64,000 bases of DNA from Pseudoips prasinana (lineage: Eukaryota > Arthropoda > Insecta > Lepidoptera > Nolidae). The stretch covers positions 29,350,893 through 29,414,892 of the forward strand of contig OX621251.1 of the NCBI GenBank assembly GCA_951640165.1. The letters are read 5' to 3'. The notes beneath the pieces are model-generated. The model made no database searches. It was not told the DNA's origin and worked only from the letters and a program-made list of their open reading frames with translations. Below, piece by piece: positions 14,291-45,328 of this stretch (the first letter of the stretch is position 1; each line of letters begins with the position of its first letter). A program made the translations under genes and the position numbers.

Positions 14291-14414
14291 CGATGATCAC
14301 TATTGCCAAACTGATTTCCTAGAACCAAGTTACTTAGAAAACGTGCCCATTACCACTAGAGGGCGGGACAGCAGTCTCCATTGTACACGACTACACTGCC
14401 TACTTAATATAAAC

Positions 14415-15857: not shown

Positions 15858-16292
15858 AACCTGGATAACGTTACACTCTATTACCAAAACTGCGGTGGCA
15901 TTCGGACTAAACTGCACGAACTATTTACGAACATACTAACTTGCTCTTATGACATAATCATACTAACTGAGACGTGGCTTGTGCCTGAGATTACTGAAAC
16001 TGAATTTATGGATCAGCGATACATAGTCTATAGATGCGATCGTGACCGCACTGCAACAGGTAAGAGGGACGGGGGTGGAGTCTTAATAGGTGTGCTTAAA
16101 AGTCTTCGCGCTGCACATCTTTGTTTGCCTGCAAGTCGGACGAATATGTACATTGAACAAGTATTTATATCCATACCCAGCTCAGACACAACCAAGCGGC
16201 ACGTAATTGGTGCTGTGTACATACCGCCTAGCATGCGTAGCGAAGTTTATACACTGCACTACGACACAGTTTTAAATATAACAGAAAGCGTG
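15858..16292 (+). pseudogene. ORF2 endonuclease N-terminal part, interrupted by the Polinton
   Basis: This is the apurinic-like endonuclease domain of the LINE: YYQNCGGIRTK at the start, LTETWL with the catalytic Glu, GGGVLIGV, and GAVYIPP. The frame stops abruptly where the Polinton target duplication ends. Its continuation (LIAGDYNLP, with the GDxN block) is found in the same frame after the right target duplication at 31461. The ORF2 start is not visible with certainty because there is no obvious ATG before the first conserved residues. Confidence 0.85.
16287..16292. repeat. Polinton target-site duplication, left
   Basis: AGCGTG, identical to 31455-31460. Six bases is the characteristic Polinton duplication length. 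Confidence 0.95.
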
Positions 16293-16392
16293 AGTAGTAT
16301 ATTATTGGGCATTCTATACCACTATCGGCAAGTTGCTCGGCGAGTGCGCCTCGCTGCCGATAGTGGTATAGAATGCCCAATAATTGATAATC
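16293..16392 (+). repeat. Left terminal inverted repeat
   Basis: The 100-bp outermost block is identical to the reverse complement of 31355-31454. Similarity continues inward with substitutions and indels: cactcgaccgagacagtaca at about 16407, and ctctccgtttacttact near 16647 matching the right arm near 31262. The original repeat was therefore longer and the left copy has gained internal duplications. Confidence 0.97.
16301..16384. repeat. Perfect 30-bp hairpin inside the left TIR
   Basis: Arms 16301-16330 and 16355-16384 are exact reverse complements (attattgggcattctatacc...); the 24-nt loop is GC-rich and includes a smaller cgag/ctcg pairing. The same hairpin occupies 31363-31446 in the right TIR. 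Confidence 0.97.
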
Positions 16393-16816
16393 TACTCGCC
16401 TCTCCACTCGACCGAGACAGTACATTGTACTGAGAACTTGATTTGGAACGATAATTCGAGCAAATCGATACTCGACTCGCCACTCAACTCGACCGATACA
16501 CTCGAACGAGACAGTTCATTTTGTCGCGTACTGGATGAGCTTTACTCGACCATTGACTAGTAACTTACTCCTTACCACTATATTCCATACGTCTGACCAG
16601 TATGCGGCGTTTCGGAGAACGATGAACTGTCAACTATCAACTCGACTCTCCGTTTACTTACTGCACTCGACCGATCACTCGAGTTTGTATTCGCTGTTAA
16701 CAGAATGTCGAGCGAGAGTGATGGTGACCGATGATTGTAACAAACCAAAGCTTGTGACTAAAGCGTTAACGGGTTGTTACTGTAAATAATAAACAACTGT
16801 AACTTAGGTACTTGGT
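16393..16816. other. Left subterminal region with repeated CTCGACCGA motifs
   Basis: actcgacc-type motifs occur near 16408, 16487, 16545 and 16665 and also in the right subterminal region (31320-31345). They could be binding sites for an element-encoded protein, or leftovers of duplications in the terminal repeat. No coding frame here is credible, including the one at 16535-16789. Confidence 0.6.
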
Positions 16817-17844
16817 TTAATTATCATAAAATGTTGGTTTGTCTGGAAACAAAATATCAGCCGCACGCACGAGCTCTTGTAGTTTTCGCCACTGAGGAGA
16901 GTCCGCGTCGGTCTGGAACTTGATTCGGACGAGCGCTTTCTTCCACAGCTCGGCGGAGTCGGTGAGGCGAGCGTCGTCAGCCTTGTACACCTTGCAGTCG
17001 ATGTAGTACTCTCCGTCGGTGCTCGTTGCTCGGCGCTCACAGCCGCTGGCTACGCGGTTCACAAAGAATGAAGTTAGGTGATCCGATGAATGTTCTTTGG
17101 GTGGGATGTCGCGGTTTTTACTGATGCCGAATATGTCCATGTCAGTGTTGGTTTTTTTACTGAAATAATAACGAAAACTGTTATTAGTTAATGTTTACAA
17201 CGAGAGATGCAGGGGCAAACAAAAAATAACAACGGTGTGTAAGCAGCGCACACAATCGCATAATATTTTATGAACGGCACCACGGATATTTCTGTAGAAA
17301 ATATTACAAGTAACTAATCAGCGAATGGAATACTTATGCAAATTGCACTATTATAATTCAATTAGTGGAAACGTACTACTTTACTATTTTAATTTAATCA
17401 GAACTAGGAGATAATAAATTCAAAATATTATTCACTTGCTACGAGTTACGGTTGTTGTTTGTGACTGCATCTTGCGTTTCCCATTGCTGTCTGCAGACGG
17501 ATTGCGTCTGGCCTTCACTTTGTGTCCAGTGATCGATGCTTGCGAGTAATCACACTCAGAGTCTGACCTGAAATAAAGATAGAGGAAATGTAGTCACACA
17601 ATTATTATTAATTAATCCAATGGAGTAATGTCCATTGCGCTGGACATACTATAGGACACAAGTGTTCGGGCAAACACTGGTTCTCTAATATTTAAATGGG
17701 ATAGCACTGAGACTGAGCTAACTATGTACAGATCGGGTGATCTGTGAAGTAACGCGCTCACAAACAAATATATGTAGTTATAAATGACAGGCTAATCACA
17801 AGTGTGATCCATGAAAACGAACCGACTATTTTATCAGACTTACA
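16817..17844 (-). CDS. Spliced, GC-rich cargo gene of unknown function (158 aa predicted)
   Basis: I infer three exons on the minus strand. The first is mostly non-coding and ends at 17844 with the bases AT before a strong donor GTAAGT. Exon 2 is 17567-17436 (acceptor TTTATTTCAG, donor GTGAAT). Exon 3 is 17159-16817 (acceptor TTATTTCAG), ending in TAA. Phases agree at both junctions, and the start codon is AT|G split by intron 1. Both introns are 276 bp. The product starts MSDSECDYSQAS, has a basic Ser/Thr-rich region in exon 2, and then a mixed helical-looking domain with FFVNRVASGCERR, YYIDCKVYKADD, ELWKKALVRIKF and QWRKLQELVRAADILFP. I recognise no family. Codon use is markedly more GC-rich than POLB and the capsid genes, which suggests recent capture from a host. 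Whether it is expressed is unknown; the frame alone from the internal ATG at 17140 would give 107 aa. Confidence 0.6.
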
Positions 17845-18144
17845 TTATTTTCCGATCAGAAGTTCCACTCGGTTTGATGACTTGGCTGGTGGTGACAGCA
17901 GCGGATGGCTATCGACAATGCCGTCACTGATATTGTAGGCGACACGGAGTGTTTGTAGACCGATTATACAAGAGCACTTCGTTGCACTTGCAGACTGCGA
18001 AAACTTTGTACCGAACAGAAAAACTTGTGGCTTATAAGTTAAAATCGAATTATAAGTTAGGAATGTTAAATCCACTACAATCAATCCGGTATTGCTTTGT
18101 TAAAGTAACTTTTTTTCTATAGTCGTATTATACGCGTTGGAAAA

Positions 18145-18151
18145 TTTTATA
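18145..18151 (-). promoter_or_regulatory. Possible TATA box for the cargo gene
   Basis: Minus-strand TATAAAA within cagtataaaattttcc lies about 300 bp upstream of the first donor site. Transcription would start near 18115-18120. Only sequence resemblance supports it. Confidence 0.3.
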
Positions 18152-19496
18152 CTGTATCGAATGTCGATGCAGCGAAATAAGCTAGGGCTGACCAAACGAT
18201 AGCGTGAACGGAATCGCCACAAACCAGATAGATTTTATTATTTTAAAGAAGTAAATAAATGTTTCCAAGGTAATTATTTCATCATCTACATTTAGGTTTC
18301 GTGTAGAAAAAATGAACTTACTGCCGTCTACCGCGTACTTCTCTAGATTTCCTAAAATAAATAGATAATATAATTCCTGTAACTACGGTAACGGGCATGA
18401 CGAAACCATGAACGTTATATGATATCGTCATCGTCATGTCGTCTATCGACATACTATGATATATTTTAATCGATTAAGTGCATTGTGTGAAATTTGTATA
18501 TTTGAATGCCTACCAAGTTGTTACCAACCCTAACCAAAATAGCTGATTATTGTGATTGCGAAATAAATAATTATGTTTAGCACACGTGTAACAATTAGAC
18601 AATAACAACTTTTATGATGAAATATTTTTCTGCTTTGTAGACAAAAAAGAAAACAAAAAAAATCCCTAAAATATTATTTATTACCTCAAAGTCTCTCGGA
18701 GCGAGCACCTTTCTAAACTGTTACAGTACAATCAAGTTAATTATTATAAATAAATATTTAATTGATCTCACACCAGAAACAACAACAATTTCAGCTACTG
18801 GAGCAACTGTGTTCGTTATATCGGGGTGCTGAAATATACATACATATTTGGATCACGCAAATACATAATCTTATGTATGAACCATTTCATATTGTGCAGG
18901 TAATTATCAAATATAACACAACAATAATACGATAACTATTTAGAACATTACAATAATTATGACTATTTTTCATTCTAGAATTTACAGCTTTTTACCTAAT
19001 TCTTCATCGGTACCAATAAACCATTTTTTTAGTTTCAGATACATTCTGCCTAAACATAATATTAATTACTGACTTGCCTGTGAAGAATTATTAAATTACT
19101 TGAAGTATATCTACATATTTGGACCACGCAGATACACATACTCTTATGTATACATAGTTTCATATTTTGCAGGTAATTATGAAATATATTTTTCTTCCCA
19201 GAATATACCATTAATCTCACCTAATCAGATTATGTACCTAATGCATCCATTTTTTTTTTTTTTTTTTTTTTATTATTTCAGATACATCCTGCCTAAACAT
19301 AATTACCGACTTGCCTGTGAAAAATTACACAAGGATCTTGAAATCAGCGTAAAATTGTCCTGACCAAGTTGTACTAATTATATAAAATATTTTGTCTGGT
19401 ATACCTAAGACGGTGAATATTAGTTGTAAGTATTATCTAATCCAAATTTATTGAACTAATAATTTCAAGTGTTCTTTGATTTCAAACAATAATATA
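18152..19496. other. Divergent spacer and POLB leader with an imperfect direct duplication
   Basis: A block of roughly 240-260 bp at about 18838-19095 is repeated at about 19105-19345. Shared landmarks are catatttgga.cacgca.ata, ttcatatt.tgcaggtaatta, tttcagatacat.ctgcctaaacat and gacttgcctgtga. Each copy has a tgcag|gtaatt junction and a tttcag acceptor, so they may be alternative leader exons or introns. A long T run is at 19250-19270. There is no credible CDS before the POLB start. Confidence 0.6.
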
Positions 19497-22400
19497 ATGC
19501 CTCACTGCTCTGATTGTAAAGTATTTGTAGACAATCGTCGATGGTCTGGTCATTTACGTAGCAATGTACATAAAAACAATAGTTCTAACCCTATGTATGA
19601 TAATGTTGTAATTATTAATTCTTCTTTTAAAGAACGAATCAAAAGTTACAAAATCATAGCGACAGGTGAACAAATACATAGTTTTCCTGAGGTGTTTCTC
19701 AAAAGTATTAGTACACAAGTCAAACATTTAATAGACAATTCAATAGAGAAACACACCTCTGTCAAAATAAATTTTGAACTGTTTGCTTCGTTTCTTATGT
19801 ATAAAAATGATCAACAAGAAATAAAATCATTCCGTACAAACAACATTATTACACATTTTAATTACGATTTTGATTCTATTTATAAACTAACTATTGATTT
19901 ACTACTAAAAAAAATTGAAGAATTTGAGGAAAGGGATAGTGGTTGGACTTTTTTATGCAATTCACATTTAGAATTAAATATTAATAAATATCAACCTCTC
20001 AGCGGATCTAAATTTTTAACTTTGCCGAAATTCATAAAAAGTAAAAGAGCTTGTTTGAATATTCGGAACAATGATGAGTATTGCTTTTTGTGGTGTGTTG
20101 TGGCGGCATTGTACCCCACAAATAGACATCCCGATAGGATTTCGTCTTATCCCCGCTTTCAGGATGTTTTGAATGTTAATAATTTGACATTTCCAATCAC
20201 ATTTTCGGACATAGCTATCTTTGAGAAAAATAATCCTTCTGTTAATATATATGTGTATGGTTTAAAAAACGAGAAGACAATTATTGGACCGCTTTATAAA
20301 ACGTTGAATAATAAGTCTAATAAAAGTATCCATCTACTGTTTATAGAAAACAATAATAATTCTCATTACTGTCTTATCAAAGATTTATCTCGTTTAGTTA
20401 GAAATCAGATGACCAAACATCATGGTAAACTATATTTCTGTGAAACTTGTTTATTGTTTTTTCCAACGCTTAGTCAAATTGAATCCCACTTGTGTGGGGG
20501 GATCGTCACAGTTTTACCAGAACAAGGTTCATTTTTAAAATTTAAAAATTATGATAGGAAACAAAACATTCCATTCGTCATATACGCTGATTTCGAAACG
20601 TTACTTGAACCCATTTCCGACGATGATTTCAACACCGCTAATACGTCATACTCTAAACGCCACGTGCCGGCTGCATTCGCTTACAATGTCGTGTCATCAA
20701 ATAAAAATGATAGCGTTGAAGGCTATAGAAGTTATCGCGGCAATGATTGTGTTTCAAAATTTATAAATTTTCTTACTGAGGATGTAAAACAAATACATCA
20801 GATTATATCCAAAAGCGAGCCTATGATATTCACTGATGACAATTCTCTAGAGTTCAAACGTGCCGTTAGGTGTCATATTTGCGACAATTTACTCTTGACC
20901 GATAAAGTAAGAGATCATTGTCATATTACAGGCCTGTATCGAGGTGCAGCACATCGACACTGTAATTTGCAACATAAAGTACCAAAATTTATACCAATAT
21001 TTTTTCACAATTTATCCGGGTACGATTGTCATTTATTTATAAAAAAGTTAGGCGAAATTCCAGGTCCAATTAAAATAATCCCTAAGACTAAAGAAAAATA
21101 CGTCGCATTCACCAAATTTATTCCTATTGCTGATAATGAGTTTATTTGTATAAGATTTTTAGATTCATTCAACTTTTTAGGGACAAGTTTAGACAAGCTC
21201 GCTAAAACATTGCAGGTGGAAGATTTTGTTAATCTTCGATTTCATTTTTCTAAAGACAGACAGTTTAATTTATTGACAAGAAAAGGTATATATCCTTATG
21301 ATTACATGACCAATTGGAAATGTTACGATCAAAAATCATTGCCGTCTAAGGGTAATTTTTATAATTATTTGACTAACGAAGACATTACAGATGAGGATTA
21401 TAATCACGCACAGGCTGTTTGGGCTGAATTCAATATTAATAACCTCGGCGAGTATACGGATCTATACTTAAAAACGGATGTGCTTTTGTTAACAGACATA
21501 TTTCAAAATTTTCGGAAAACCTGTAAACAATATTACAGTCTTGACCCGGCGTTTTACATTACTGCACCTAGTTTATCTTTCGATGCAATGTTGCTAAAAA
21601 CGGGCGTTCAGTTAGAACTCGTGTCGGACTTAGCTATCATCAGAATGATACAAAGCGGTATACGCGGCGGTTTGTGCATGTGTTCCCATCGGCATGCTAG
21701 AGCCAATCACAAATACATGCCTGAATATAATCCATCACAACCTGAGAGTTTCATAGTATATTTAGATTGTAATAATCTTTACGGTTTTAGCATGTGTCAG
21801 TATTTACCATACTCTAGTTTCAGATTTTTAAGTGATAACGAATTAGCAAATTTTAATGTTACCACTATAGAGGATAACGCAAACTGGGGCTTCATATTAG
21901 AAGTCGATCTATTGTATCCCGAGCATTTACATAATGACCATAATGACTTACCATTTTGTCCCGAAAAATGTGTACCCCCGGGAGGTAAAACAAAGAAATT
22001 AATAGCAAATTTGTATAATAAGTACAACTATGTGATTCACTACGTTCATTTAAAAAAATGTTTAGAACATGGTTTAATATTACGTAAAATTCATAGAGCA
22101 ATTACTTTTAGACAGAGTCCATATTTAAAACAGTACATAGAGTTAAATACTCAATTAAGACAGAAAGCAAAAAGTTCCTTCGAACAAGACTTTTTTAAGT
22201 TATTAAATAACAGTGTTTTTGGAAAAACATTAGAAAATACTGAAAATAGAGTAACCGTACATTTAGTTAATCAATGGTGCGATCAGTCCAATCGAACTAA
22301 GAAATTTATATCCGCTGAGAAACTTATAGCCAACCCCTATTTCCACAGTGCATCTATTTTATCAGAAAATTTAGTTGCAATACAAATGAAACCTGATCAA

Positions 22401-23015
22401 ATTATTTTAGATAAACCTATATACATAGGTTTCGCTGTATTAGAACTTTCAAAAGCACACATGTATTACTTTCATTACAATATTGTAAAGCCTTTTTATA
22501 AAGATCGAGTGCAGCTATGTTACACAGATACCGATTCCTTTGTCTATAAAATATACACCAACGATTTTTACAATGATTTGAAATATAATTTTTTACAATA
22601 TTTTGACAGCAGTAACTATGAAATCACAAATGATTTACAGATACCGCTAAAAAATAAAAAGGTTCCCGGTCTCTTTAAAGATGAAATGGGAGGAAAATAT
22701 ATTACTGATTTTGTTGGTTTGAGATCGAAACTTTACTCTATAAGAACCCCTAATAGTATCATTAAAAAAGCAAAAGGAGTAAAATCATGCGTGGTCAGGG
22801 ATTTAAACTTATCAGACTATGAAACCATTTTATTTAATGGTGGAGTAATCCGGAGAAAAAATAATATGTTTAAATCAATAAAGCACGAAATATTTACTCG
22901 GACTGTCAACAAAGTTGCTTTATCTAGAAATGATGACAAACGATCGATATCTGTGGATCAAATATCAACCCGAGCCTGGGGGCATGCATTTATTTTTAAG
23001 AATGAATTACTTTGA
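19497..23015 (+). CDS. POLB: Protein-primed family B DNA polymerase
   Basis: A 1172-residue intact frame; I place the start at the ATG at 19497 (MPHCSDCKVF), since upstream in-frame sequence has no ATG. The protein begins with a C2H2-like finger (HCSDC...HLRSNVH) and has a second Cys/His cluster near FCETCLLFF. The 3'-5' exonuclease follows: Exo I ADFETL (D365, E367), Exo II FHNLSGYDCHLF (D510) and Exo III YLKTDVLLLTDIF. A CHICD...CHITG.YRGAAHRHCN insertion between Exo I and Exo II resembles an endonuclease VII-like Cys/His module. Polymerase motifs are A (LDCNNLYG, D757), B (KLLNNSVFGK, 901-910) and C (YTDTDS, D1011 and D1013). This is the pPolB of Polintons; it would replicate the element from protein-primed ends. 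All catalytic residues are present. Confidence 0.97.
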   Translation: MPHCSDCKVFVDNRRWSGHLRSNVHKNNSSNPMYDNVVIINSSFKERIKSYKIIATGEQIHSFPEVFLKSISTQVKHLIDNSIEKHTSVKINFELFASFLMYKNDQQEIKSFRTNNIITHFNYDFDSIYKLTIDLLLKKIEEFEERDSGWTFLCNSHLELNINKYQPLSGSKFLTLPKFIKSKRACLNIRNNDEYCFLWCVVAALYPTNRHPDRISSYPRFQDVLNVNNLTFPITFSDIAIFEKNNPSVNIYVYGLKNEKTIIGPLYKTLNNKSNKSIHLLFIENNNNSHYCLIKDLSRLVRNQMTKHHGKLYFCETCLLFFPTLSQIESHLCGGIVTVLPEQGSFLKFKNYDRKQNIPFVIYADFETLLEPISDDDFNTANTSYSKRHVPAAFAYNVVSSNKNDSVEGYRSYRGNDCVSKFINFLTEDVKQIHQIISKSEPMIFTDDNSLEFKRAVRCHICDNLLLTDKVRDHCHITGLYRGAAHRHCNLQHKVPKFIPIFFHNLSGYDCHLFIKKLGEIPGPIKIIPKTKEKYVAFTKFIPIADNEFICIRFLDSFNFLGTSLDKLAKTLQVEDFVNLRFHFSKDRQFNLLTRKGIYPYDYMTNWKCYDQKSLPSKGNFYNYLTNEDITDEDYNHAQAVWAEFNINNLGEYTDLYLKTDVLLLTDIFQNFRKTCKQYYSLDPAFYITAPSLSFDAMLLKTGVQLELVSDLAIIRMIQSGIRGGLCMCSHRHARANHKYMPEYNPSQPESFIVYLDCNNLYGFSMCQYLPYSSFRFLSDNELANFNVTTIEDNANWGFILEVDLLYPEHLHNDHNDLPFCPEKCVPPGGKTKKLIANLYNKYNYVIHYVHLKKCLEHGLILRKIHRAITFRQSPYLKQYIELNTQLRQKAKSSFEQDFFKLLNNSVFGKTLENTENRVTVHLVNQWCDQSNRTKKFISAEKLIANPYFHSASILSENLVAIQMKPDQIILDKPIYIGFAVLELSKAHMYYFHYNIVKPFYKDRVQLCYTDTDSFVYKIYTNDFYNDLKYNFLQYFDSSNYEITNDLQIPLKNKKVPGLFKDEMGGKYITDFVGLRSKLYSIRTPNSIIKKAKGVKSCVVRDLNLSDYETILFNGGVIRRKNNMFKSIKHEIFTRTVNKVALSRNDDKRSISVDQISTRAWGHAFIFKNELL

Positions 23016-23065
23016 TCATAATTTTAAGTTAAGTGTTACCTACTCATAGTTTAGTTTTAGGAAAT

Positions 23066-23100
23066 AATAAATGTTAATATTATACAAAAAATGAAATAAA
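23066..23100 (+). terminator. POLB polyadenylation signals
   Basis: AATAAA at 23066-23071 and 23095-23100, 51-85 bp after the POLB stop, followed by a T-rich stretch. Confidence 0.6.
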
Positions 23101-23480
23101 GTGTGAATTATTATAATTATTGACTTGTTTTATTTCTGAAATCCTGTTTATTTCAAAATATCATTACACTTTTAAAATCGGTAAACAAAGTTAACACTGA
23201 TTGCAGTTATCTCACTATGCACCTAAAATACCATGCATCATAAGGTTGATTTTCGAATAACTAACGTTTTACGATTAAGTAACATGCTTACAAGGCGTTG
23301 TTTGTCATTGTATAAGTGTTACCTACGTTGCAGTTCATTGGCCTTAGTCTTGAGACACAAACGCTTAGTTGACAATATTAGTATGACTTGTAATTATTTA
23401 GTTATTTTGTCATCATTTACGAAATATTATTCGGCGCGAACACCTGTTTAATATTTTTTTAACTTCCATCAAAAGTTATC
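23101..23480. other. Intergenic spacer in the Polinton
   Basis: A frame of 72 codons at 23233-23451 starts at ATG but has no recognisable motif, so I do not call it. The stretch probably contains the promoter of the next gene. Confidence 0.4.
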
Positions 23481-24074
23481 ATGTCGGTGAGTAAAATATT
23501 TTTAATTCGTTTTTTTATGATTGTTTTATAATTAGAGATTGTGTTCGCAGCTGTGTTGTGTTGCATTTTTCCAGAGCCTTTTGTCACTAATCTAAAGTAA
23601 ATCTAGACTTTCTCGATTGAAAACCCAATTAAAACGCTATACTAGCGGAATAGTGGTATAAATTGTGTTTATATTTTGTTCCAGAATTCTGACACCGAGA
23701 TTGTATTCAGCCAGTATGCTCAGAATCCTTACGAGGGATTCTCCGAGATGTTTCGCAGTGAACCCGGGCAAAGCAAACAAGTCACGAAAGATAAAAAACC
23801 AAAACAACGGTGCAGGGAAAAATCGATAAAGCAAAATCCTACAAAATCCTTCGTTATGAGTCGACTACATCGAAAAGGGATTAAGTTAATAAAAATTTCA
23901 GTGGTAGATCTGTGTAACAACAATCCTCAAACCATAGACAGTGATAGTGACAGTGAAAACGTTATTATAAACGCTCAATATATTGTTCAAGATCCCATCG
24001 ACAGTGTTATGGACGAAACTGAGTCTTTAGTTAAGAAAATATCAAAATCTTTAATAGGTACTGACTTTTATTAA
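23481..24074 (+). CDS. Small spliced Polinton gene of unknown function (131 aa predicted)
   Basis: Exon 1 is only ATGTCG (23481-23486), directly followed by a consensus donor GTGAGT. The acceptor is ttttgttccag ending at 23684, and exon 2 runs 23685-24074 in phase to TAA. The product is hydrophilic: a short acidic N-terminus (NSDTEIVFSQYAQ), a strongly basic middle (KDKKPKQRCREKSIKQ and MSRLHRKGIKLIKI), an acidic DSDSDSEN stretch and a C-terminus with KKISKSLIG. The charge pattern suits a nucleic-acid- or chromatin-binding protein, but that is only inference. The codon-1/2 intron and the N-terminal S-rich SQ pattern recall the cargo gene at 16817-17844. AATAAA at 24179-24184 is its likely poly(A) signal. 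Confidence 0.65.
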
Positions 24075-24207
24075 CCATTTTTGTAAAGTAGTTAATATTT
24101 GTATTTTCATTATGATGTTTTTATTTAATTTTGTATTAGGGTGTGTTATTTGTGGAGTAGCGTGGGGGTGTTTAACAAAATAAAAGCAAATTTACATTAT
24201 TTTGATT

Positions 24208-24213
24208 TTTATT
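24208..24213 (-). terminator. Poly(A) signal for the minus-strand block
   Basis: AATAAA on the minus strand, 54 bp beyond the stop of the 158-residue gene. The plus-strand signal at 24179 lies 24 bp away, so the two transcription units converge here. Confidence 0.55.
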
Positions 24214-24266
24214 TAAAAACCTTAAAACCAATAATCTAAATACATTACACATATGAGTACATACAT

Positions 24267-24743
24267 TTATACCCATTCTAAATATTTCCTTAAACAAAGC
24301 ACATTTTTAAGAGCACATTGCTTTAGATGTTTATTACAATTAAAATTAGATCTTCCTTCACAGTATTTTTTATGCAAAACAGAGAAACTAAGACATTGTT
24401 CTGTACCAAGGTCTGATACTTTACAATTCACACACAGTTCCTTTATCCAATTCACCTTCTCCAAACCATTTACAATAATTTCCTTATTTTCTAGATATGG
24501 AACGATTATACGCCGAAATTCTCTATAGTCAATATATCCTTCATTCCAATAAATACCTCTATTTCTTTCCAACCATTTAACTTGTCTCTTTTCGTCACTT
24601 GTTAAGTATTTAAACAAGTATGGCGGTTTTATTAAAAATGTTTGCGTATAATCACGACTTGCAAAAGCTAATTCTTTTATTATAAAATTATTGTTCAGGT
24701 CTTTAAACCCTTGAACATCTAAAATAATAGTATTCGGATTCAT
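24267..24743 (-). CDS. Polinton-associated 158-aa protein, function unknown
   Basis: It starts ATG with MNPNTIILDVQGFKD and continues FIIKELAFASRDY, KPPYLFKYL, WLERNRGIYWNEGYI and a Cys-rich C-terminus (ELCVNCKVSDLG, FNCNKHLKQCALKN). I recall proteins with the LDVQGFK...KELA and NRGIYWNEG pattern beside capsid genes in other arthropod Polinton-like elements. The acidic residues D9 and E24 and the beta-strand-like N-terminus would be compatible with an RNase H-like nuclease fold, but I cannot show activity. The C-terminal Cys/His residues may bind zinc. It overlaps the major capsid gene stop by four bases (ATGA). Confidence 0.75.
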   Translation of the reverse strand: MNPNTIILDVQGFKDLNNNFIIKELAFASRDYTQTFLIKPPYLFKYLTSDEKRQVKWLERNRGIYWNEGYIDYREFRRIIVPYLENKEIIVNGLEKVNWIKELCVNCKVSDLGTEQCLSFSVLHKKYCEGRSNFNCNKHLKQCALKNVLCLRKYLEWV

Positions 24744-25954
24744 GATATTTTTCTCACAGTATTACTCAATGGCTTGTACTCAATTATGCAGTCGTTCAAT
24801 ATAAGACAGTATGCAGAAGTTTGATCTGGTATATCGGAATCACTCTCAATTTCCACTCTTACATCCACAATAGGACCTGTCTTTACATTATCAGCTTGTC
24901 TAGAGCAATCTATGACAAATAGCGGCGCCAAATCTTTGAATTGTTTCTCACTTAATAAGGGTTCCGAGCGACGTCCGTAATAAGACTGTTGAAATCTGAT
25001 GTATTGCTCGTATAATAAAGCGATTCTGTTATTCGCGAAGCTGACATTTAGGTTTTCATACGGGAAGTAAGTTGAGTTTAAGTATACTCTAACGTCACGA
25101 ACATGACAGTGATCGAACTGGGACATATCAGAACTTGAATTGTTTTTTCTATTTGTTTGTAGACCTATAATTATGTATCTTGGTTTCTCTATTTGTGAGG
25201 AAGTTTTGATAGACCAGGTATGTTTTGTAGTTTTAGGTAAAGCTGGATATTCGTACAGATCCCAATTTCTGAATATCATCTGGAGTGGTCGATCTTTTTC
25301 TAACAGTTTTAGCAAACTTATTTTTTCTTTGTCGGATACTTTAACATGCGGTACACGCCAGATGATTTTATTTATCTGAACGTCGTCTACAAATTCCCCG
25401 GTGTTAAGTTTCACAGCATTCAGATTAGTGTTACTTCGTAGCAATATCAGTTCGTGCCTACTATTTATCACGACTTTCTTGAAATCTTCTGCAAAACCGA
25501 TAATGTTACAGAGGGGTATAGAAGCAGAAAAACTACCCCCATTAATATTTTTTATTCCATCGATATTCCAGCCCCATGCATTGGCTATCTTTGATTCACC
25601 TTCACTCATTGATATTAACGATTTCATGGTGGTAGTTATGCCAGCGTTTTTTATTCTATCAATTTCCACTCCATTCAGCTCATATCTTATATCTTGGAAT
25701 AAGTAGAGTAGAGCATTATTCGTAAAATTAACACTAGTGGCTTTCTCTTTCATATCCTTTTTACTTACGACAACAGTTCCTTCCAAATACAAGGTACTAG
25801 CTGAGGGAAGTATATACAAGTCCTGTTGGTTAATAGGTATGCGGATTTCATCGTTTCTATTGAAACTAGTTACGTAGGGCTTGTAAGAATGAAATTCGAT
25901 TCCTTCAACAGTGTTGTCATAAGTCGGAGCAGATAAAACGTCTAAGATATTCAT
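24740..25954 (-). CDS. PY: Major capsid protein candidate (double jelly roll)
   Basis: 404 residues, intact. Signature blocks are NRNDEIRIPINQQDLYILP near residue 35, SASTLYLEG, LFQDIRYELNGVEID, and later WSIKTSSQIEKPRYIIIGLQ and DHCHVRDVRVYLNS. These match my memory of the Polinton major capsid family, which folds as a double jelly roll and forms the pseudo-hexameric capsomers of an icosahedral particle. At 404 residues it is shorter than many Polinton capsid proteins, so a homologous but divergent capsid subfamily is possible. Its start overlaps the stop of the upstream 49-residue gene (ATGA) and its end overlaps the next gene, as in a compact virion gene block. Confidence 0.8.
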   Translation of the reverse strand: MNILDVLSAPTYDNTVEGIEFHSYKPYVTSFNRNDEIRIPINQQDLYILPSASTLYLEGTVVVSKKDMKEKATSVNFTNNALLYLFQDIRYELNGVEIDRIKNAGITTTMKSLISMSEGESKIANAWGWNIDGIKNINGGSFSASIPLCNIIGFAEDFKKVVINSRHELILLRSNTNLNAVKLNTGEFVDDVQINKIIWRVPHVKVSDKEKISLLKLLEKDRPLQMIFRNWDLYEYPALPKTTKHTWSIKTSSQIEKPRYIIIGLQTNRKNNSSSDMSQFDHCHVRDVRVYLNSTYFPYENLNVSFANNRIALLYEQYIRFQQSYYGRRSEPLLSEKQFKDLAPLFVIDCSRQADNVKTGPIVDVRVEIESDSDIPDQTSAYCLILNDCIIEYKPLSNTVRKIS

Positions 25955-26100
25955 TTTAGCAAACCGATCGCTTTGAGAAATGCCTTGTTTTCTTTAGTTA
26001 ATTTAATTTTCTTCTTAGAGCGAGCTCTTATTTGGTTGAAAGCTTGAGCGGGACTGATATTTTTGATTTGTTGATGCATATATTTATTGTAGTCAATCAT
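25951..26100 (-). CDS. 49-aa basic protein between penton and major capsid genes
   Basis: A short frame starts ATG at 26100 and stops at 25951. It contains MIDYNKYMHQ, SPAQAFNQIRAR, SKKKIKLTKENKAF and ends IGLLK. It overlaps the penton stop and the major capsid start by four bases each, the same tight coupling as its neighbours, which argues that it is a real gene. The Lys/Arg-rich middle would suit a small core or capsid-associated peptide, comparable in role with adenovirus core peptides, but this is inference from position and charge. Confidence 0.65.
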   Translation of the reverse strand: MIDYNKYMHQQIKNISPAQAFNQIRARSKKKIKLTKENKAFLKAIGLLK

Positions 26101-26771
26101 TTTTTTCTTCTGAGATGCAAATACAGCTGCACTTCTTCACCGCGCAAATTGATTAAGCGGTTATTTATATCTAACAGCCTGATATGTATACAGCTAATGT
26201 TGTTTTGGTTAATTGGAAAGTATATCGCGTTTTTCGGGATTTCTATAATTCTATATCCGGGAGGCACGTTGAGAGCAAATTCGTGGATAATGTGACTGGG
26301 TTCTCCGTTTGTGTACGAGCCGCTTACAATATCACATTCGATCCTGATCACTGTTGTAGGTAAAATGTTGACTGGAAAGTGCGATACATGCCATTTATTT
26401 GCTTTTAAGATCTGCTTATTAAACCCTAACAAATTCCTAAACGTACCTTCTTTATTAAAATTTATGTCTTTTGTACAATATACAGCAGCTTTTAAAGTAT
26501 TGTTATTGCACTGTAGTTTGATTGATGCATCTTTCATTTCAGATTTTAAATAATCATTAATATCTTGCAATTCATAGGTGCCGTCAGGTATTTCAATAAC
26601 TTCGTTAGAACCATAATAGAACTTATTATTCGTTTTGTCAATGTTTGGAATAGAATTAAATGTTGCGAAATGCAATAAGGCACACTCATACTGTTCATAT
26701 AGTTGCAACGTGTTAGGATAGTAAGTAGATAAAGTTGACGAGTTTCCAGTTATCGATAATGTGAGTGACAT
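26097..26771 (-). CDS. PX: Minor capsid (penton-like, single jelly roll) protein
   Basis: 224 residues, intact. It starts MSLTLSITGN and has the recurrent blocks CALLHFATFNSIPNI, IEIPDGTYELQDINDYL, LKAAVYCTKDINF, FRNLLGFN, VIRIECDIVSGSYTNGEP, HEFALNVPPGYRIIEIP and the final RGEEVQLYLHLRRKK. This matches the Polinton minor capsid protein proposed to form the pentons. It sits directly before the major capsid gene, as expected. No damage seen. Confidence 0.85.
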   Translation of the reverse strand: MSLTLSITGNSSTLSTYYPNTLQLYEQYECALLHFATFNSIPNIDKTNNKFYYGSNEVIEIPDGTYELQDINDYLKSEMKDASIKLQCNNNTLKAAVYCTKDINFNKEGTFRNLLGFNKQILKANKWHVSHFPVNILPTTVIRIECDIVSGSYTNGEPSHIIHEFALNVPPGYRIIEIPKNAIYFPINQNNISCIHIRLLDINNRLINLRGEEVQLYLHLRRKK

Positions 26772-26816
26772 CTTGCAAATGATTCAAATAAAAGAAAAGC
26801 ATAAGTTTTATACGTT

Positions 26817-27179
26817 TTATTTCCAAAAATTCCATAGATATTCTAAACATAAGTGTCCACAATTTACAGTGTTGAATTTCTGATATCTTGTATAATTATA
26901 AAAAACATTACAATTCTTAAAATATCGCATTAATTCCATTGGAGGTTTTAAATCTCCAAAGCTATCAAAATATTCACAATAATTGCATACTTTTACATAA
27001 GCTACCCAATGCGTGCCTTCGTTCTTAGAGTCGGCCAAGTTAACAACACCACATTCAACCCGTTTTGGCGTCCTTGGTAACTGATCCTTCATGTATACTC
27101 CTCGAAAGTGAGGGATGTTGCGTGCATACCTTTGGATGTCTATATTAGTGAGAGGACGATTAGGTAGCTTATTTTTCAG
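26817..27179 (-). CDS. PRO: Adenain-like cysteine protease, start undetermined
   Basis: The conserved frame encodes the adenovirus-type maturation protease: GTHWVAYVK with the catalytic His (residue 28 counted from the first ATG at 27092), YFDSFGD with the acidic residue (D43), Gln 71, and NTVNCGHLCLEYLW with the nucleophile Cys 78. Family-typical sequence (LTNIDIQRYA, IPHFRGVYMKD) begins about 25-30 codons before that ATG, so ATG 27092 is internal and translation must begin upstream. The frame is open back to CTG at 27177-27179 and a little beyond, with no ATG before a TAA. It overlaps the PLA2 gene by four bases in the -1 frame. Options are -1 frameshifting, a non-AUG start, splicing, or a lost start. 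Role: cleavage of virion proteins during maturation. Confidence 0.85.
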   Translation of the reverse strand: MKNKLPNRPLTNIDIQRYARNIPHFRGVYMKDQLPRTPKRVECGVVNLADSKNEGTHWVAYVKVCNYCEYFDSFGDLKPPMELMRYFKNCNVFYNYTRYQKFNTVNCGHLCLEYLWNFWK

Positions 27180-27904
27180 TTTTTTGAAGACTTAATGAAT
27201 AAACCATTACCATTTTTATGTGACTTAATGTACAAGCCCTGACCTAACTTTAAAGACTCCATAGCCTTATTATGTCGTTGTGTTTCTCGCAAATTTTGCT
27301 GACCTGCTTTGTAATCGTTAACAGTTTTTGCAATACCAGCCGCACCACCAGCTAAAGTTCCTAAAGCTGATAAACCCGCAAAAATTGGGATTAAAGGTAG
27401 AATACCTCCAGTCTTTGGTAAGGGTATCACTCGCGGCACTCGAATTTTCTGAATGCATGGGATTATTTTTTTTGCTGCTGAGTAAGCAGCGTTAATTAAA
27501 GCTTTACTGTCCTTTGGATTCAGTTTCTTTATTTTTGCTTTTATTTTTGACACGAAACTTTTAAACGTTTTAATGCCAGAACCAGATTTCAGTTTGGCTT
27601 TCATAACTTTGCTCACTAACCATGAACTAAGTTTTTCACCTTTCCCAGCATCGCTCGATTTAAGTCTTTGTTTAGCCATATTTAGTAGTTGCAAATCAGC
27701 TTTGTGGCGATTGGGTAAGTCTGTATGGTCTGCATATGCAATGTCGTGATGCATACAAGCTTCGTCTAGCTTATTTACACCTCGGTCACCTCGTAATAAA
27801 CGTTTCTGCAATTTAGTTCCGGGACCGCAATAATTGTAGCCGGGTAAATGAAGTTCGAACGGTAGATTATTAATTAAGGTATTAACAAGTTCACCTCCTT
27901 GCAT
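27176..27904 (-). CDS. Minor virion protein with parvovirus-type phospholipase A2 domain
   Basis: 242 residues from ATG 27904. The N-terminal domain (about 15-75) has the calcium loop YNYCGPGT (residues 23-30) and the catalytic pair in CMHHDIAYAD (H53-D54, Y57), the pattern of parvovirus VP1 and adintovirus PLA2 domains, which disrupt endosomal membranes during particle entry. A basic Lys-rich region (about 95-140) follows, then a hydrophobic Gly/Ala segment (LPLIPIFAGLSALGTLAGGA) and a basic tail. The layout resembles adenovirus internal capsid proteins cleaved by the protease encoded next door. Catalytic residues are intact. Its last codons contain the slippery heptamer described separately. 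Confidence 0.85.
   Translation of the reverse strand: MQGGELVNTLINNLPFELHLPGYNYCGPGTKLQKRLLRGDRGVNKLDEACMHHDIAYADHTDLPNRHKADLQLLNMAKQRLKSSDAGKGEKLSSWLVSKVMKAKLKSGSGIKTFKSFVSKIKAKIKKLNPKDSKALINAAYSAAKKIIPCIQKIRVPRVIPLPKTGGILPLIPIFAGLSALGTLAGGAAGIAKTVNDYKAGQQNLRETQRHNKAMESLKLGQGLYIKSHKNGNGLFIKSSKN
27179..27185 (-). promoter_or_regulatory. Candidate -1 ribosomal frameshift site A AAA AAC
   Basis: The heptamer is in the zero frame of the PLA2 gene as TCA AAA AAC TGA, with the stop codon immediately following. A one-base backward slip would continue as CTG AAA AAT, exactly the protease frame. A AAA AAC is an efficient eukaryotic slippery sequence. I see no strong downstream pseudoknot; a weak cctc/gagg pairing is possible further on. 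Confidence 0.5.
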
Positions 27905-27957
27905 TGTCTAATGTGTAATGAGAGAAATGATGCAAAAGTAATCGTTATATAATTATT

Positions 27958-28893
27958 TTAATCCACTATTGCAGTTTTCTCGATCCAACTATTTTCTTCG
28001 TTGTTTAGACCCAACCATTTCACAAACATTTTTGATCCTTTTCTTTTTAAAACCCTTTCTATCAAATAAATACCAGGATAGTAAGATTTCTGAAGTTCTT
28101 GCTCGTAAAATGTTCCCATTATGGCTTGCTTTCGCTGATCTTGTATATGATATGTTACTGGTATGGTATGATTAATTTTTTTTATAGTAAATATTTCAGT
28201 TGACCAATTAGGTGTATAACCTTTTTCAAAATGGTGTTTGTATTTACTGATACGAACAAAGTCACCTACTTTGAACTTAGGTTTTCTACGGACGGTTACA
28301 TGATTTAAGGCTTTTTTAATATTTTCTTTTATAACAGACTCGCAAGATTTATTTACTTCAATTGGTTTAAATTTAATGGTACGATGTTTTGTGTTGTTAT
28401 ATATCTTTAACGTAACCTCTAACGGTATACCTAACCACATATAGTTTCCGTTCAGACTAAAATATTTATATATTTTATTTTTAAGAGTTTTAATCAGTCG
28501 CTCTACGATCGAAGCTTTTTTAGTAGAAAACGTTGAGTAATGGTTAACATTGTAAGTCTTCATAAGCGTTTGAAATGAGTTGTTATAAAATTCTGTTCCC
28601 ATATCAGTTTGTAAATTAACCGGTTTGCGATTGCTGTTAATCAGTATTCGTTTAAATGCATGAGTAACATCAAGTTTATTTTTTGATTTTAATGGCTCTG
28701 CCCAAGCGTACTTTGAGAAGCAGTCAATCACCACTAAAATGTAATTATGACCTTTATTATATTTTCTTAGATTTTGCATGTCCATCAGATCAGCTTGCCA
28801 CAAGTCATCGATCCCCTTTAGAATGACAGGACGTCTAACGAAATTTCTTCGTGCTGCTTTATGTATTTCATTAACAATTTGCTGTTTTGCCAT
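27958..28893 (-). CDS. INT: Polinton integrase (DDE) with C-terminal chromodomain
   Basis: 311 residues, intact. The retroviral-type catalytic core has LWQADLMD (D35), VVIDCFSKYAWAEPL, LQTDMGTEF (D97) and KKASIVERLIKTLKNKI (E131). The D97-E131 spacing leaves 33 residues between the two, close to the D,D(35)E norm. A beta-barrel-like region follows (KFKVGDFVRISKYK). The end is a chromodomain (IYLIERVLKRKGSKMFVKWL and NSWIEK), which could read histone marks at target sites. The N-terminus is short, with no HHCC zinc finger in view. It starts within TAATG, overlapping the stop of the gene upstream by one base. It would catalyse insertion with the observed 6-bp target duplication. Confidence 0.95.
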   Translation of the reverse strand: MAKQQIVNEIHKAARRNFVRRPVILKGIDDLWQADLMDMQNLRKYNKGHNYILVVIDCFSKYAWAEPLKSKNKLDVTHAFKRILINSNRKPVNLQTDMGTEFYNNSFQTLMKTYNVNHYSTFSTKKASIVERLIKTLKNKIYKYFSLNGNYMWLGIPLEVTLKIYNNTKHRTIKFKPIEVNKSCESVIKENIKKALNHVTVRRKPKFKVGDFVRISKYKHHFEKGYTPNWSTEIFTIKKINHTIPVTYHIQDQRKQAIMGTFYEQELQKSYYPGIYLIERVLKRKGSKMFVKWLGLNNEENSWIEKTAIVD

Positions 28894-29327
28894 TACGGAG
28901 TTTTTTGTAGTAATTTATCTACCTCTGCTTGGGTATAAAACTTATCTTCCAAATGAGTTGAAATCTCAGGTATCTTTGCTTTTAAAGTAGCCTGAACTGT
29001 GTCCTTTGTGTCTTTTATGATTTGAGAGCGCAATGAACCAATCATGTTATTAAATTCTTTTAACATATTAGCATTCAATCGATCTACGTAATCCTTGTTC
29101 ACGGTCAGGTTATTTAATTCTTTTAACATGTTAGCATTCAATCGATCTACATAATCCTTGTTCACAGCATCGCCTGCTTCTACTGGAGATCGGACTCCTC
29201 TTAATCTTGATGTTTTTAAATCAAAATCTCCGTTTTCTAATTTTAACAATGCGTTCTCATTAAACTCAAATAACTCTGATAAACGCATTCTTTTGTGAAT
29301 GTAGTGTCCGAATTTGTCTACGTTCAT
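28893..29327 (-). CDS. Fibre-like coiled-coil protein with internal duplication
   Basis: 144 residues from ATG 29327. The middle holds RGVRSPVEAGDAVNKDYVDR, which resembles the GDAVNKxYVD repeats of viral fibre and tail proteins. The 21-residue unit beginning NKDYVDRLNANMLKE occurs twice in tandem, encoded by a 63-bp DNA duplication (29047-29165). Long helices follow. The sequence suggests a trimeric or dimeric elongated virion part, perhaps a spike, but I do not know a named family. It is joined to the integrase gene by a one-base overlap. Confidence 0.75.
   Translation of the reverse strand: MNVDKFGHYIHKRMRLSELFEFNENALLKLENGDFDLKTSRLRGVRSPVEAGDAVNKDYVDRLNANMLKELNNLTVNKDYVDRLNANMLKEFNNMIGSLRSQIIKDTKDTVQATLKAKIPEISTHLEDKFYTQAEVDKLLQKTP
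29047..29165 (-). repeat. 63-bp in-frame tandem duplication
   Basis: Copies begin at 29047 and 29110, differ at only a few positions over the shared 56 bp and keep the reading frame (21 codons per unit). Confidence 0.9.
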
Positions 29328-29383
29328 ATTTAAGGTGTATTGTATCGAGAAGCTGATAATAAAATAAACACATTTTAAAATAT

Positions 29384-30286
29384 TTATTTATTTATAACTT
29401 TACTTTCACGCAATTCTTCAATGATAGATATAATTTCATTATCTAATCCTGTGTTACCAGCATCTCGAGATGCAATTAGTAATTTTAACCTATCTACCAA
29501 TTCATTTGGATCGTCCCAATAAACAAAATCAACATTTTTCTTCCACATTTTTGTAAAGGGTAGTCCTTTTCCTTTCGTTTGGTGGTCCTGAATTGTACTT
29601 CGTAGTTGGAATAGAGGCTTAATAATTTGCAAATATTTTTGTCCTTTATTACTTTTGATTGGTTTACTGGGCTCATAGTCCCGTCGATGTGCGTTTGTGT
29701 CAAGTAGCATCGACTTATAATGTTTCATATCACTCTCTGTAACCAAGCTTAAATCGACATTCTTTTTCAACAGCAACTGTTTTAAACCAGGCGTATTTCG
29801 GTATTTGCGTCCAGCTACGATGATATACTCATCACTGATCGTTATACGAGCAGAACCTAACATCAATTTTCCGCCCTCTTTTCTGACACCAAACGGAATA
29901 TCGGTCAGAGCTTCTGAGGACAGTGACCAGGATGATGAATCAATACCTTGGTTGTTTTCAACTAATGATTTGTACGAAGAGTCACTTTCAATATCAGATT
30001 CATATTCGTCTTCATTGTCGTTATTATCATTGGTTCCTTTACTAATTGTGGGTTCTTTTTGCAAAGTTTTATCGATAAACGGAACTTCGGTTTCTTCATT
30101 TTCTATATTATGCGGAACACAAGCCTGCTTACTGACATTAGCAATTTGGTTGAGTGGTTCTGTTACCGGCTTGAAAACTGATTCCAGTACTTGCTGATTG
30201 TTAAGCTCAGCATCTCTCATCTTTCGCACCTTCTTCTTAACAGCATCTGCAGCCTCAACAATTTGTCTTTTCAGTGATTTTTCCAT
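29384..30286 (-). CDS. Polinton-associated protein with YWDDPNELV signature
   Basis: 300 residues, intact. The N-terminus is a charged helix (MEKSLKRQIVEAADAVKKKV), followed by an acidic low-complexity linker (NDNNDNEDEYESDIESDS). The C-terminal domain contains FGVRKEGGKLMLGSARI, YRNTPGLKQLLLKKN, then FVYWDDPNELVDRLKLL and GNTGLDNEIISIIEELRE. I recall this C-terminal signature from many uncharacterised proteins of arthropod and cnidarian Polinton-like elements, so it belongs to the element core, but its function is unknown. The acidic linker and coiled coil would fit a scaffold or virion component. Confidence 0.8.
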   Translation of the reverse strand: MEKSLKRQIVEAADAVKKKVRKMRDAELNNQQVLESVFKPVTEPLNQIANVSKQACVPHNIENEETEVPFIDKTLQKEPTISKGTNDNNDNEDEYESDIESDSSYKSLVENNQGIDSSSWSLSSEALTDIPFGVRKEGGKLMLGSARITISDEYIIVAGRKYRNTPGLKQLLLKKNVDLSLVTESDMKHYKSMLLDTNAHRRDYEPSKPIKSNKGQKYLQIIKPLFQLRSTIQDHQTKGKGLPFTKMWKKNVDFVYWDDPNELVDRLKLLIASRDAGNTGLDNEIISIIEELRESKVINK

Positions 30287-30369
30287 AGTAACAAAAAGTT
30301 CGTGATTGATTAAGCGATGTCTGAAGAATAATAATATCGCGAGGGTAACACTCTTAAATATAAATATTT

Positions 30370-31056
30370 TTAATCAAAGACAACAAAAGTGTCAAATTTA
30401 TTTCTATAACATCCTTTATTTTTGGAGCAATCCTTATTAATCACTACATAATTGAAAGGTTCACTCCATATTTTCGAACACATTTCACGAAATTCAATCC
30501 ATGTCATATCAGTGTTGACATGTTCTTCATAAATATGCCGTAAATTAATTTCATCTTGTTTAAAAAGTATGATTAAGTTCGCATTATCTCTTACTAACTG
30601 CTTGGGGATTTTACTATATGTTTGGTTCAGATAAAAACAATCTATGCATTTGTGTCCTCCCATTGCAAAATAATCACGCATGTTATTTTGATTTTCACAA
30701 GCAACATCATCAAAAATAATCACGGAGTTGGGTTTTGCGTCCTGAACGCTTAGTACTTCCTCATTTCCCTGATATTTCTGGAGGGAAATACCGGGAACCC
30801 GTTGCAAAACTCTTTCTAAGAAAATGTACTTAGGTTGGTGCAGAGTTTTTGAATAAACATAAACATTTTCAAATCTTAATCCATTTTCGTGTATAAGAAG
30901 GCCAATTAATAAATTGGTTTTTCCACAATTAGATGGACCACAAATGATACATCGTACTGAGTTAGGTAATAATTCCCCATGACGAAAACTAGTCTTACAA
31001 ATATCATCGCAGACTGTATCAACATGCAGCGATTGCGGTTGTTTTACAAATTTCAT
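30370..31056 (-). CDS. ATP: A32-like genome-packaging ATPase (FtsK/HerA class)
   Basis: 228 residues. Walker A is ICGPSNCGKTNLL (residues 38-50) and Walker B is SVIIFDDV (D116, D117), followed by a sensor-type segment GHKCIDCFYLNQTY and KIPKQLVRDNANLII. This is the packaging ATPase common to Polintons, adintoviruses and many large DNA viruses, which drives DNA into preformed capsids. It is the gene closest to the right terminal repeat, about 300 bp away. No damage is visible. Confidence 0.93.
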   Translation of the reverse strand: MKFVKQPQSLHVDTVCDDICKTSFRHGELLPNSVRCIICGPSNCGKTNLLIGLLIHENGLRFENVYVYSKTLHQPKYIFLERVLQRVPGISLQKYQGNEEVLSVQDAKPNSVIIFDDVACENQNNMRDYFAMGGHKCIDCFYLNQTYSKIPKQLVRDNANLIILFKQDEINLRHIYEEHVNTDMTWIEFREMCSKIWSEPFNYVVINKDCSKNKGCYRNKFDTFVVFD

Positions 31057-31354
31057 GATTACTGTTGGAAATGAACCGATTAAAAATGAGTGAATGTATA
31101 TAGTACGTTAACATTTATAAACTTACCACAACCTCTTTTGCGTTACTGGTCATTGATCGAGTGGATTGTTCATTACTAAGCATTCTGTACCACCCTTCAG
31201 AGCGATAGCAAACTCGCATGATCATTGGTTGTATACAGTTATACACTAGAGAGTAAGTAAACGGAGAGTTGATGGATGATCATCGTTGCTCATCAAGTAC
31301 GCAGCAAAATGTACTGTCTCGGTCGAGTTTATCGGTCGAGTGGAAAGGCGAGTC
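31057..31354. other. Right subterminal region
   Basis: Non-coding. It holds TATAAA on the minus strand near 31113-31118, a possible promoter element for the ATPase gene, and ctcgacc-type motifs (31322-31340) shared with the left end. Confidence 0.5.
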
Positions 31355-31454
31355 GATTATCAATTATTGGGCATTCTATACCACTATCGGCAGCGAGGCG
31401 CACTCGCCGAGCAACTTGCCGATAGTGGTATAGAATGCCCAATAATATACTACT
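31355..31454 (-). repeat. Right terminal inverted repeat
   Basis: Reverse complement of 16293-16392 without mismatch; it contains the second hairpin, with arms 31363-31392 and 31417-31446. Confidence 0.97.
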
Positions 31455-31460
31455 AGCGTG
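31455..31460. repeat. Polinton target-site duplication, right
   Basis: AGCGTG, identical to 16287-16292. Confidence 0.95.
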
Positions 31461-45182: not shown

Positions 45183-45328
45183 TTAATCAGTGCAATGCAA
45201 ATGGTGCATTCAAATGGTGAATTTTCTTTTTAAATCGGTCCAGTACTTTTTAAGCTTAATCAGTGCAATGCAAATGGTGCATTCAAATGGTGAATTTTCT
45301 TTTTAAATCGGTCCAGTACTTTTTAAGC
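45183..45328 (+). repeat. Perfect 73-bp tandem duplication
   Basis: 45183-45255 and 45256-45328 appear identical (ttaatcagtgcaatgcaaat... to ...gtactttttaagc). The lack of divergence means it is recent. Confidence 0.95.

Follow-up and report, generated by a model that had tools for sequence, protein, structure and literature searches.

Among the known elements closest to the one described here is Sf Maverick 2, from Sf-RVN cells of Spodoptera frugiperda, which in the available part of its description (PMC5803895) has eight small tandem open reading frames (ORFs) with PolB on the opposite strand and encodes proteins of 228 (ATP), 310 (INT), 404 (ORF7) and 158 (ORF8) residues. The same part of that account leaves a fibre outside its nine named ORFs, terms the phospholipase A2 (PLA2) protein a capsid protein, gives no function for ORF6-8 and does not mention terminal inverted repeats (TIRs). 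Intact vertebrate Mavericks, as far as the accessible text of PMC8097293 describes them, also carry TIRs, 6-bp target-site duplications (TSDs) and genes for PolB, an integrase and an ATPase. The Eupolintoviridae (formerly Adintoviridae) are defined, in the section of PMC11071296 available, by a hexon that is recognisable by BLASTP against adintovirus hexons. The stretch of DNA analysed here, a window of 64,000 nucleotides from contig OX621251.1 of the moth Pseudoips prasinana, contains at 16293-31454 an element of 15,162 bp with near-equal protein lengths and likewise with small tandem ORFs opposite PolB. Judged by its sequence, it is an endogenous eupolintovirus (Polinton/Maverick; formerly adintovirus) of Sf Maverick 2 type, and it is very probably an integrated member of a family that was amplified very recently.

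The evidence for recent mobility is unusually direct. Comparison of the ends shows TIRs of exactly 100 bp, with no mismatches between left and right, flanked on both sides by AGCGTG, which bears out the description of a complete element with perfect TIRs and a perfect 6-bp TSD in an earlier sequence-only reading of this DNA. In a search of a single assembly (1,125,673,386 bases in 56 contigs), the left-end query was identical over 208 of 208 bases at all 40 scored places, the best 40 of 128 candidates, and the right-end query over 255 of 255 bases at 40 of 40, again the best of 128. Together, these best 40 per end put a 100% identical left or right end at no fewer than 54 distinct places on 26 contigs. 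Twenty-six copies could be paired at both ends, 25 of them 15,156-15,188 bp long and one 16,401 bp, and all 26, the window copy included, have a perfect 6-bp TSD. The 26 TSDs are all different, and each paired copy is therefore a separate insertion. The target is weakly palindromic: of the 26 TSDs, 22 have a pyrimidine as their third base and 20 have a purine as their fourth.

A search with the capsid protein gave 332 candidates, of which 103 were scored and assigned to families by hand, using open-frame length and identity. The family of the window copy, family A, accounts for 65 of these genes, spread over 30 contigs and none with a stop codon, and when five genes were compared in 20 family A copies, 99 of the 100 gene copies proved intact, with a disrupted PLA2 frame as the sole exception. 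In vertebrate Mavericks the maximum is 38 intact copies per genome with all genes required (PMC8097293, available text), whereas the figure of at least 65 for the moth requires an uninterrupted capsid gene only. A very recent burst of amplification in family A, and hence recent mobility, is strongly supported. The sequence-only reading had held the element to be recently or still mobile and had proposed a whole-assembly search for near-identical copies as the check; that search has now been run, and the dozens of near-identical copies with distinct TSDs support the suggestion. Its implication that so clean a copy is a rarity was wrong, the window copy being one among dozens.

Copies this similar might instead be segmental duplications or assembly artefacts that never transposed, and the mean pairwise difference, about 0.1% or less over three stretches, would fit this, as would two capsid genes on contig C33 that lie on one strand and could be a tandem duplication. 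The different flanks and the distinct perfect TSD at each of the 26 paired copies refute this explanation for those 26, and with family A capsid genes on so many contigs its overall probability is negligible.

The 20 family A copies used for dating, the window copy among them, were picked from those with both ends exactly matching. Of their 5,186 aligned columns 19 are variable, and at 17 of these sites the variant is private to a single copy; 12 of the 19 are in the 4,115 columns of two mostly coding stretches (mean pairwise differences 0.00017 and 0.00038) and 7 in the 1,071 columns of a non-coding stretch (0.0011). The private changes amount to 1.6e-4 per site per copy, which would give an age of about 57,000 generations (33,000-90,000) at 2.9e-9 per site per generation, a rate taken from Heliconius; the estimate takes in any sequencing error and, since the copies were selected for perfect ends, is biased towards a young age. 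An excess of private sites is what is expected from one recent source, and that source might be a circulating virus with almost no sequence diversity, which infected the germline repeatedly and seeded the copies without copying inside the genome. The virion-like gene set and the close relatives in other noctuids, with capsid identities of 90-91%, would agree with such an origin. Intragenomic amplification fits the data equally well, and no relative of the element was found in viral metagenomes (IMG/VR, which may contain few insect viruses), so repeated infection is possible, if on balance doubtful.

Three places in the assembly (G000) show unusual arrangements of family A. On contig C24 (27074085-27089503) the left end of an inversely oriented copy comes after an apparently full-length one, no more than about 50 bp away. 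The two capsid genes on contig C33, at 45365981 and 45382380, are on the same strand 16.4 kb apart, and a copy on contig C18 (12700321-12716721) is 1.24 kb longer than the others; these two cases are possibly the same kind of insertion, or tandem duplication. Of the 103 scored capsid genes, 15 are on contig C32 (9.3 Mb, 0.8% of the assembly), where 0.85 would be expected, and this contig may be the W chromosome.

The features of the window copy are as follows.

16287..16292, unstranded: left copy of the TSD, AGCGTG, a perfect 6-bp duplication.
16293..16392, plus strand: left TIR, 100 bp, with a doubled trinucleotide at its start and a hairpin (fold -40.8 kcal/mol, z -12.5).
16393..19496, unstranded: left region without a convincing gene, with subterminal repeats and a direct repeat.
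19497..23015, plus strand: PolB, 1172 aa, with exonuclease and polymerase motifs.
24267..24743, minus strand: ORF8, 158 aa, predicted DEDD-exonuclease fold with an ECHC tetrad.
24740..25954, minus strand: major capsid protein (hexon, double jelly roll), 404 aa, Pfam PF21738 at 1e-109.
26097..26771, minus strand: candidate penton or minor capsid protein, 224 aa, named from its position.
26817..27191, minus strand: adenain-like protease frame, 124 codons, with H61, D76, Q104 and C111.
27176..27191, minus strand: overlap of PLA2 and protease, with a slippery A_AAA_AAC immediately 5' of the PLA2 stop codon.
27176..27904, minus strand: virion protein with a PLA2 domain, 242 aa, PF08398 at 3.4e-14, with YCGPGT and DEACMHHDIAY.
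27958..28893, minus strand: integrase, 311 aa, rve core at 3.1e-12 (Pfam), with D35, D97 and E131.
28893..29327, minus strand: fibre-like protein, 144 aa, PHROG tail fibre at 3.4e-4.
29384..30286, minus strand: ORF2, 300 aa, an open frame without a family match, placed as is ORF2 of the Sf Mavericks in the available part of PMC5803895.
30370..31056, minus strand: packaging ATPase, 228 aa, with Walker A GPSNCGKT and Walker B FDD.
31355..31454, minus strand: right TIR, 100 bp, of the same sequence as the left.
31455..31460, unstranded: right copy of the TSD, AGCGTG.

Over 404 aa the hexon shares 91% of its residues with the hexon of Spodoptera moth adintovirus 1 (taxid 2609853, Eupolintoviridae), and a protein labelled S. 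frugiperda ORF 7 also has 91% identity to it. Among the best 120 of 2,076 matches, the named species with the nearest hexons are Chrysodeixis, Spodoptera and Helicoverpa (90-91%), followed by Ostrinia and Loxostege (69-72%), which points to a noctuid or noctuid-like moth as the most likely host. With a retrovirus-like (rve) integrase, a packaging ATPase, the TIRs and the TSD, these matches uphold the earlier naming of a Polinton/adintovirus-like element. All ten frames of the element are open with no internal stops (9,951 bases in total, small overlaps counted twice), PolB on the plus strand and, in order on the minus strand, ATPase, ORF2, fibre, integrase, PLA2, protease, penton candidate, hexon and ORF8. 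Catalytic motifs were found in PolB, integrase, ATPase, PLA2 and protease, the same five enzymes for which open frames with catalytic residues had been claimed from the letters. The Pfam matches of hexon, PLA2 and integrase core exceed the cut-off of their families. Both capsid candidates named at that time occupy open frames, and the hexon has stood; the penton is still a candidate.

For PolB the assignment uses polymerase and exonuclease motifs that are presumed to be typical of such enzymes, and every motif looked for is present in the window protein (D365, HNLSGYD 504, TDVLLLTD 660, DCNNLY 757, KLLNNSVFGK 901 and TDTDS 1010). There is no Pfam match to an N-terminal OTU domain, and an OTU-like Cys/His pair is seen by eye only. 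The integrase has retroviral integrases as its best matches in the PDB (8.3e-6), and its C-terminal domain, residues 281-309, is probably a chromodomain, with a Chromo match at E 0.003 (17.9 bits against a cut-off of 25.1) and PDB chromobox chains at E 0.51. The ATPase matches Pox_A32 at 2.4e-4 (21.1 bits, just below the cut-off of 22.8) and the protease matches the C5 family at 0.013 (below the Pfam cut-off) and adenain 1avp in the PDB at E 0.005, modest scores that stand beside their catalytic residues; scores for the Sf Maverick ATPase and protease are similarly modest in the available part of PMC5803895.

The fibre is 63% identical to the tail fiber homologue of Spodoptera moth adintovirus 1, which has 122 aa as against 144 aa here, mainly through an in-frame tandem duplication of 63 bp (window 29042-29165) that adds 21 residues. 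This duplication is also present in close homologues, including at least two of the nearest relatives among the matches listed (P0220, P0222). Change of fibre length in heptad steps was suspected from the lengths and rejected, the differences in length being mostly at the ends of the protein. In the left region, the direct repeat has a spacing of about 272 bp, near 18830-19330.

Several points weigh against the reading of the window copy as an intact member of a recently mobile virus family. Searches of Pfam, NCBIfam, PHROGs and the PDB gave no match between PolB and a polymerase family, and because of this its identity rests on the motifs. The penton candidate is in the expected place in the layout, where it may correspond to other Polinton pentons; its single-sequence structure model failed, with a mean pLDDT (predicted local distance difference test) of 36. 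The protease frame has no ATG ahead of its conserved core. Both the end lists, being the best 40 places each with less perfect ends unseen, and the dating sample, chosen for exactly matching ends, favour young copies, while the intactness check left out PolB, ATPase, ORF2, penton and protease. Only one assembly is behind the copy evidence, hence no presence/absence polymorphism was seen. Against the window copy, the 20 copies have 6 amino-acid-changing and 3 silent changes, numbers too small to give a sign of purifying selection.

The startless protease frame is in the -1 frame relative to PLA2, and A_AAA_AAC, a slippery X_XXY_YYZ heptamer read in the PLA2 frame, lies within the overlap of the two. 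One such site proves little, because slippery heptamers are common by chance (35 in frame in 3,192 codons of these AT-rich genes). In the window copy (family A), in 6 of 6 copies of a second family, B, and in 6 of 8 of a third, C, the heptamer is the same, has the same phase and is immediately followed by the PLA2 stop; the remaining two C copies are disrupted at the slippery site. The proteases of these families are diverged, with identities of 58% between A and C and 84% between A and B, and the fact that the heptamer is kept across them leads to the prediction of -1 ribosomal frameshifting, with the protease produced as part of a PLA2-protease fusion. Alternatively, an ATG could be spliced in, or initiation could be non-AUG. 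The chance frequency of the heptamers is consistent with this alternative, as is the failure to find a significant RNA stem 3' of the slippery site, where nested folds were no better than shuffles (z 0.24; z 0.93), a result that counts against frameshifting. The conserved phase in all three families is not so easily accounted for in this way, and the CTG after the slip in families A and B reads CTA in family C, with which a shared CTG start does not fit; a separate start for the protease is quite unlikely. In the available part of a preprint (PMC11071296) it is suggested that the penton genes of adintoviruses in some cases have -1 slippery sites, and that a "similar relationship" may underlie fusions of hexon and protease. 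Such fusions are related to the one predicted here but different, and a PLA2-protease fusion is not mentioned in that part.

The gene content would allow the following course for the element. Its DNA would be copied by its own PolB, probably with protein priming from the doubled terminal trinucleotide. Jumping-back protein-primed initiation uses a doubled terminal trinucleotide in adenovirus-like systems. The copies would be inserted by the element's own integrase, whose cuts in the two target strands would be 6 bp apart, at sites with a slight bias towards palindromes. The hexon, penton candidate, PLA2, fibre, ATPase and protease genes would imply a virion stage, and the protease would be produced through the frameshift as a minor product relative to PLA2.

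ORF8 is modelled with a pLDDT of 89 and has in the model an RNase H/DEDD exonuclease fold. Its best structural matches, DinG, Maelstrom, Pol III epsilon and the arenavirus nucleoprotein exonuclease, are within about 1 Z unit of each other, and fold alone cannot choose among them because the scores are so close. In an alignment of 47 sequences, the window protein and 46 of 97 matches, the first acid pair is D-x-Q in 45 and E-x-Q in two (D9 in 45 of 47, Q11 in 47 of 47), and the last acid is replaced by N147 in all 47, from which it follows that ORF8 should not cut. At the sequence level the lost DEDD catalytic residues are accompanied by an ECHC tetrad, a predicted zinc site, consisting of E24 (47/47), C136 (46/47), H139 (47/47) and C143 (47/47). 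The full motif is present in 45 of the 47, the exceptions being P0212 and P0213, which have other C-terminal spacing or are without the first Cys.

Maelstrom of Bombyx binds its zinc through E137, C290, H293 and C302 and has D122, N124 and R306 at the dead site (PMC4408791, in the part available). Bombyx Maelstrom and ORF8 both have the E 15 residues past the D, and both have C-x2-H. Four residues after the last C stands N147 in ORF8 and R306 in Maelstrom. The two differ in the gap from the H to the last C, 3 residues in ORF8 and 8 in Maelstrom. The moth's own Maelstrom exons have the same spacing of D, N and E, and a Cys with Arg at +4. At 158 aa, and compared with the MAEL domain (PDB 4ybg, 5af0, 9nhc), ORF8 has no room for an HMG box. 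Maelstrom was absent from the 12 families matched by the 47 ORF8 members at E<=1 and from the PDB matches at E<=10, and with no sequence-profile match ORF8 is called Maelstrom-like only, not Maelstrom.

Fold and motif together point to an RNA-binding, non-cutting Maelstrom-like protein. A simpler explanation would be a diverged DEDD exonuclease domain, for example of the proofreading type, with no special link to Maelstrom, and the closeness of the Z scores does not separate the two. The replacement of catalytic residues, with Q11 and N147 in every one of the 47 sequences, and the Maelstrom-like spacing of the tetrad argue against a plain exonuclease, as does the report, in the available part of PMC7968707, that cellular exonucleases besides Maelstrom are without such a zinc site; this explanation is unlikely. 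Arenaviral exonucleases have the same ECHC tetrad and a role in suppressing innate immunity, according to the same part of that source, and by this parallel a role of ORF8 against host RNA defence is plausible but unproven. That ORF8 is a virus-borne mimic of Maelstrom, able to bind RNA but not to cleave it, and that it weakens the silencing of the element in the germline, is a more specific proposal and a very unlikely one.

Each TIR can form a hairpin with a 30-bp stem and a 24-nt loop (on the left, arms at 16301-16330 and 16355-16384), and folds far better than shuffled sequences. Parvovirus-type terminal hairpins, which are taken here to be long palindromes at both ends that can fold when single-stranded, are similar in this respect; such a system has a rolling-hairpin nickase, whereas the moth element has PolB instead. 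Hairpin transfer with flip and flop orientations in the manner of the parvoviruses is argued against by the finding of no exact matches to the flipped loop orientation in the genome, a count made without a control count for the normal orientation. The 80 listed ends are all in one orientation, though they were ranked by identity to that orientation.

Families B and C (L133-L158) are, on the basis of their sequences, older than family A. Their scored capsid genes number 30, of which 7 have a stop, and 8, of which none has, and over about 2.3 kb (L143 left out, without alignment) the copies are 0.2-0.9% apart in family B and 0.6-0.8% apart in family C. The ends of family B have their outer 24 bases in common with family A, and a terminal palindrome is present in four of five right-end stretches of family B, with none in L150. 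In the seven family C stretches no palindrome was found, and the right end is not reached in these. In L148, a copy of family B, the terminal palindrome is perfect and 39 bp long where its relatives have arms of 17 bp, as though a part of the loop had been copied back in inverse. Family C seems, by eye, to be laid out like Sf Maverick 1, with PolB sequence upstream of the late genes and on their strand, whereas PolB in family A is on the opposite strand.

The element is inserted in a long interspersed nuclear element (LINE), since a LINE endonuclease frame is restored across the site when the flanks are joined. On the left of the element, ORF1-like frames (14238-15734) that encode a PHD finger and a Baculo_FP domain are left, and on the right a reverse transcriptase (32646-33800). 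The LINE frame is itself broken about 40 codons past the junction, in contrast to the open genes of the element. Elsewhere in the window there is an 11-bp unit, CCCTACCCCTA, repeated in tandem about 85 times with strong strand bias (5348-6266), a 104-bp tandem unit in 2.9 copies with an inverted repeat inside the unit (46838-47142), and a perfect 73-bp duplication (45183-45328).

A specialist would not expect three of the points: that the copies are so many and yet nearly identical, that the frameshift arrangement is conserved, and that there is a Maelstrom-like gene. The frameshift arrangement explains the startless protease, and automatic annotation may wrongly call such copies broken. If it were true, Maelstrom mimicry could explain how there come to be dozens of near-identical 15-kb Polintons in a moth germline defended by PIWI-interacting RNAs (piRNAs), and the presence of a Maelstrom-like protein in a virus that transposes offers a lead, open to testing, on the way in which elements of this kind face that defence. 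The mobility and viral nature of animal Polintons are open, in part because most of the known vertebrate copies are decayed (PMC8097293, available text). Family A is young enough that its insertions may still segregate between individuals, and in so young a family movement, silencing and particle formation can be sought in living moths.

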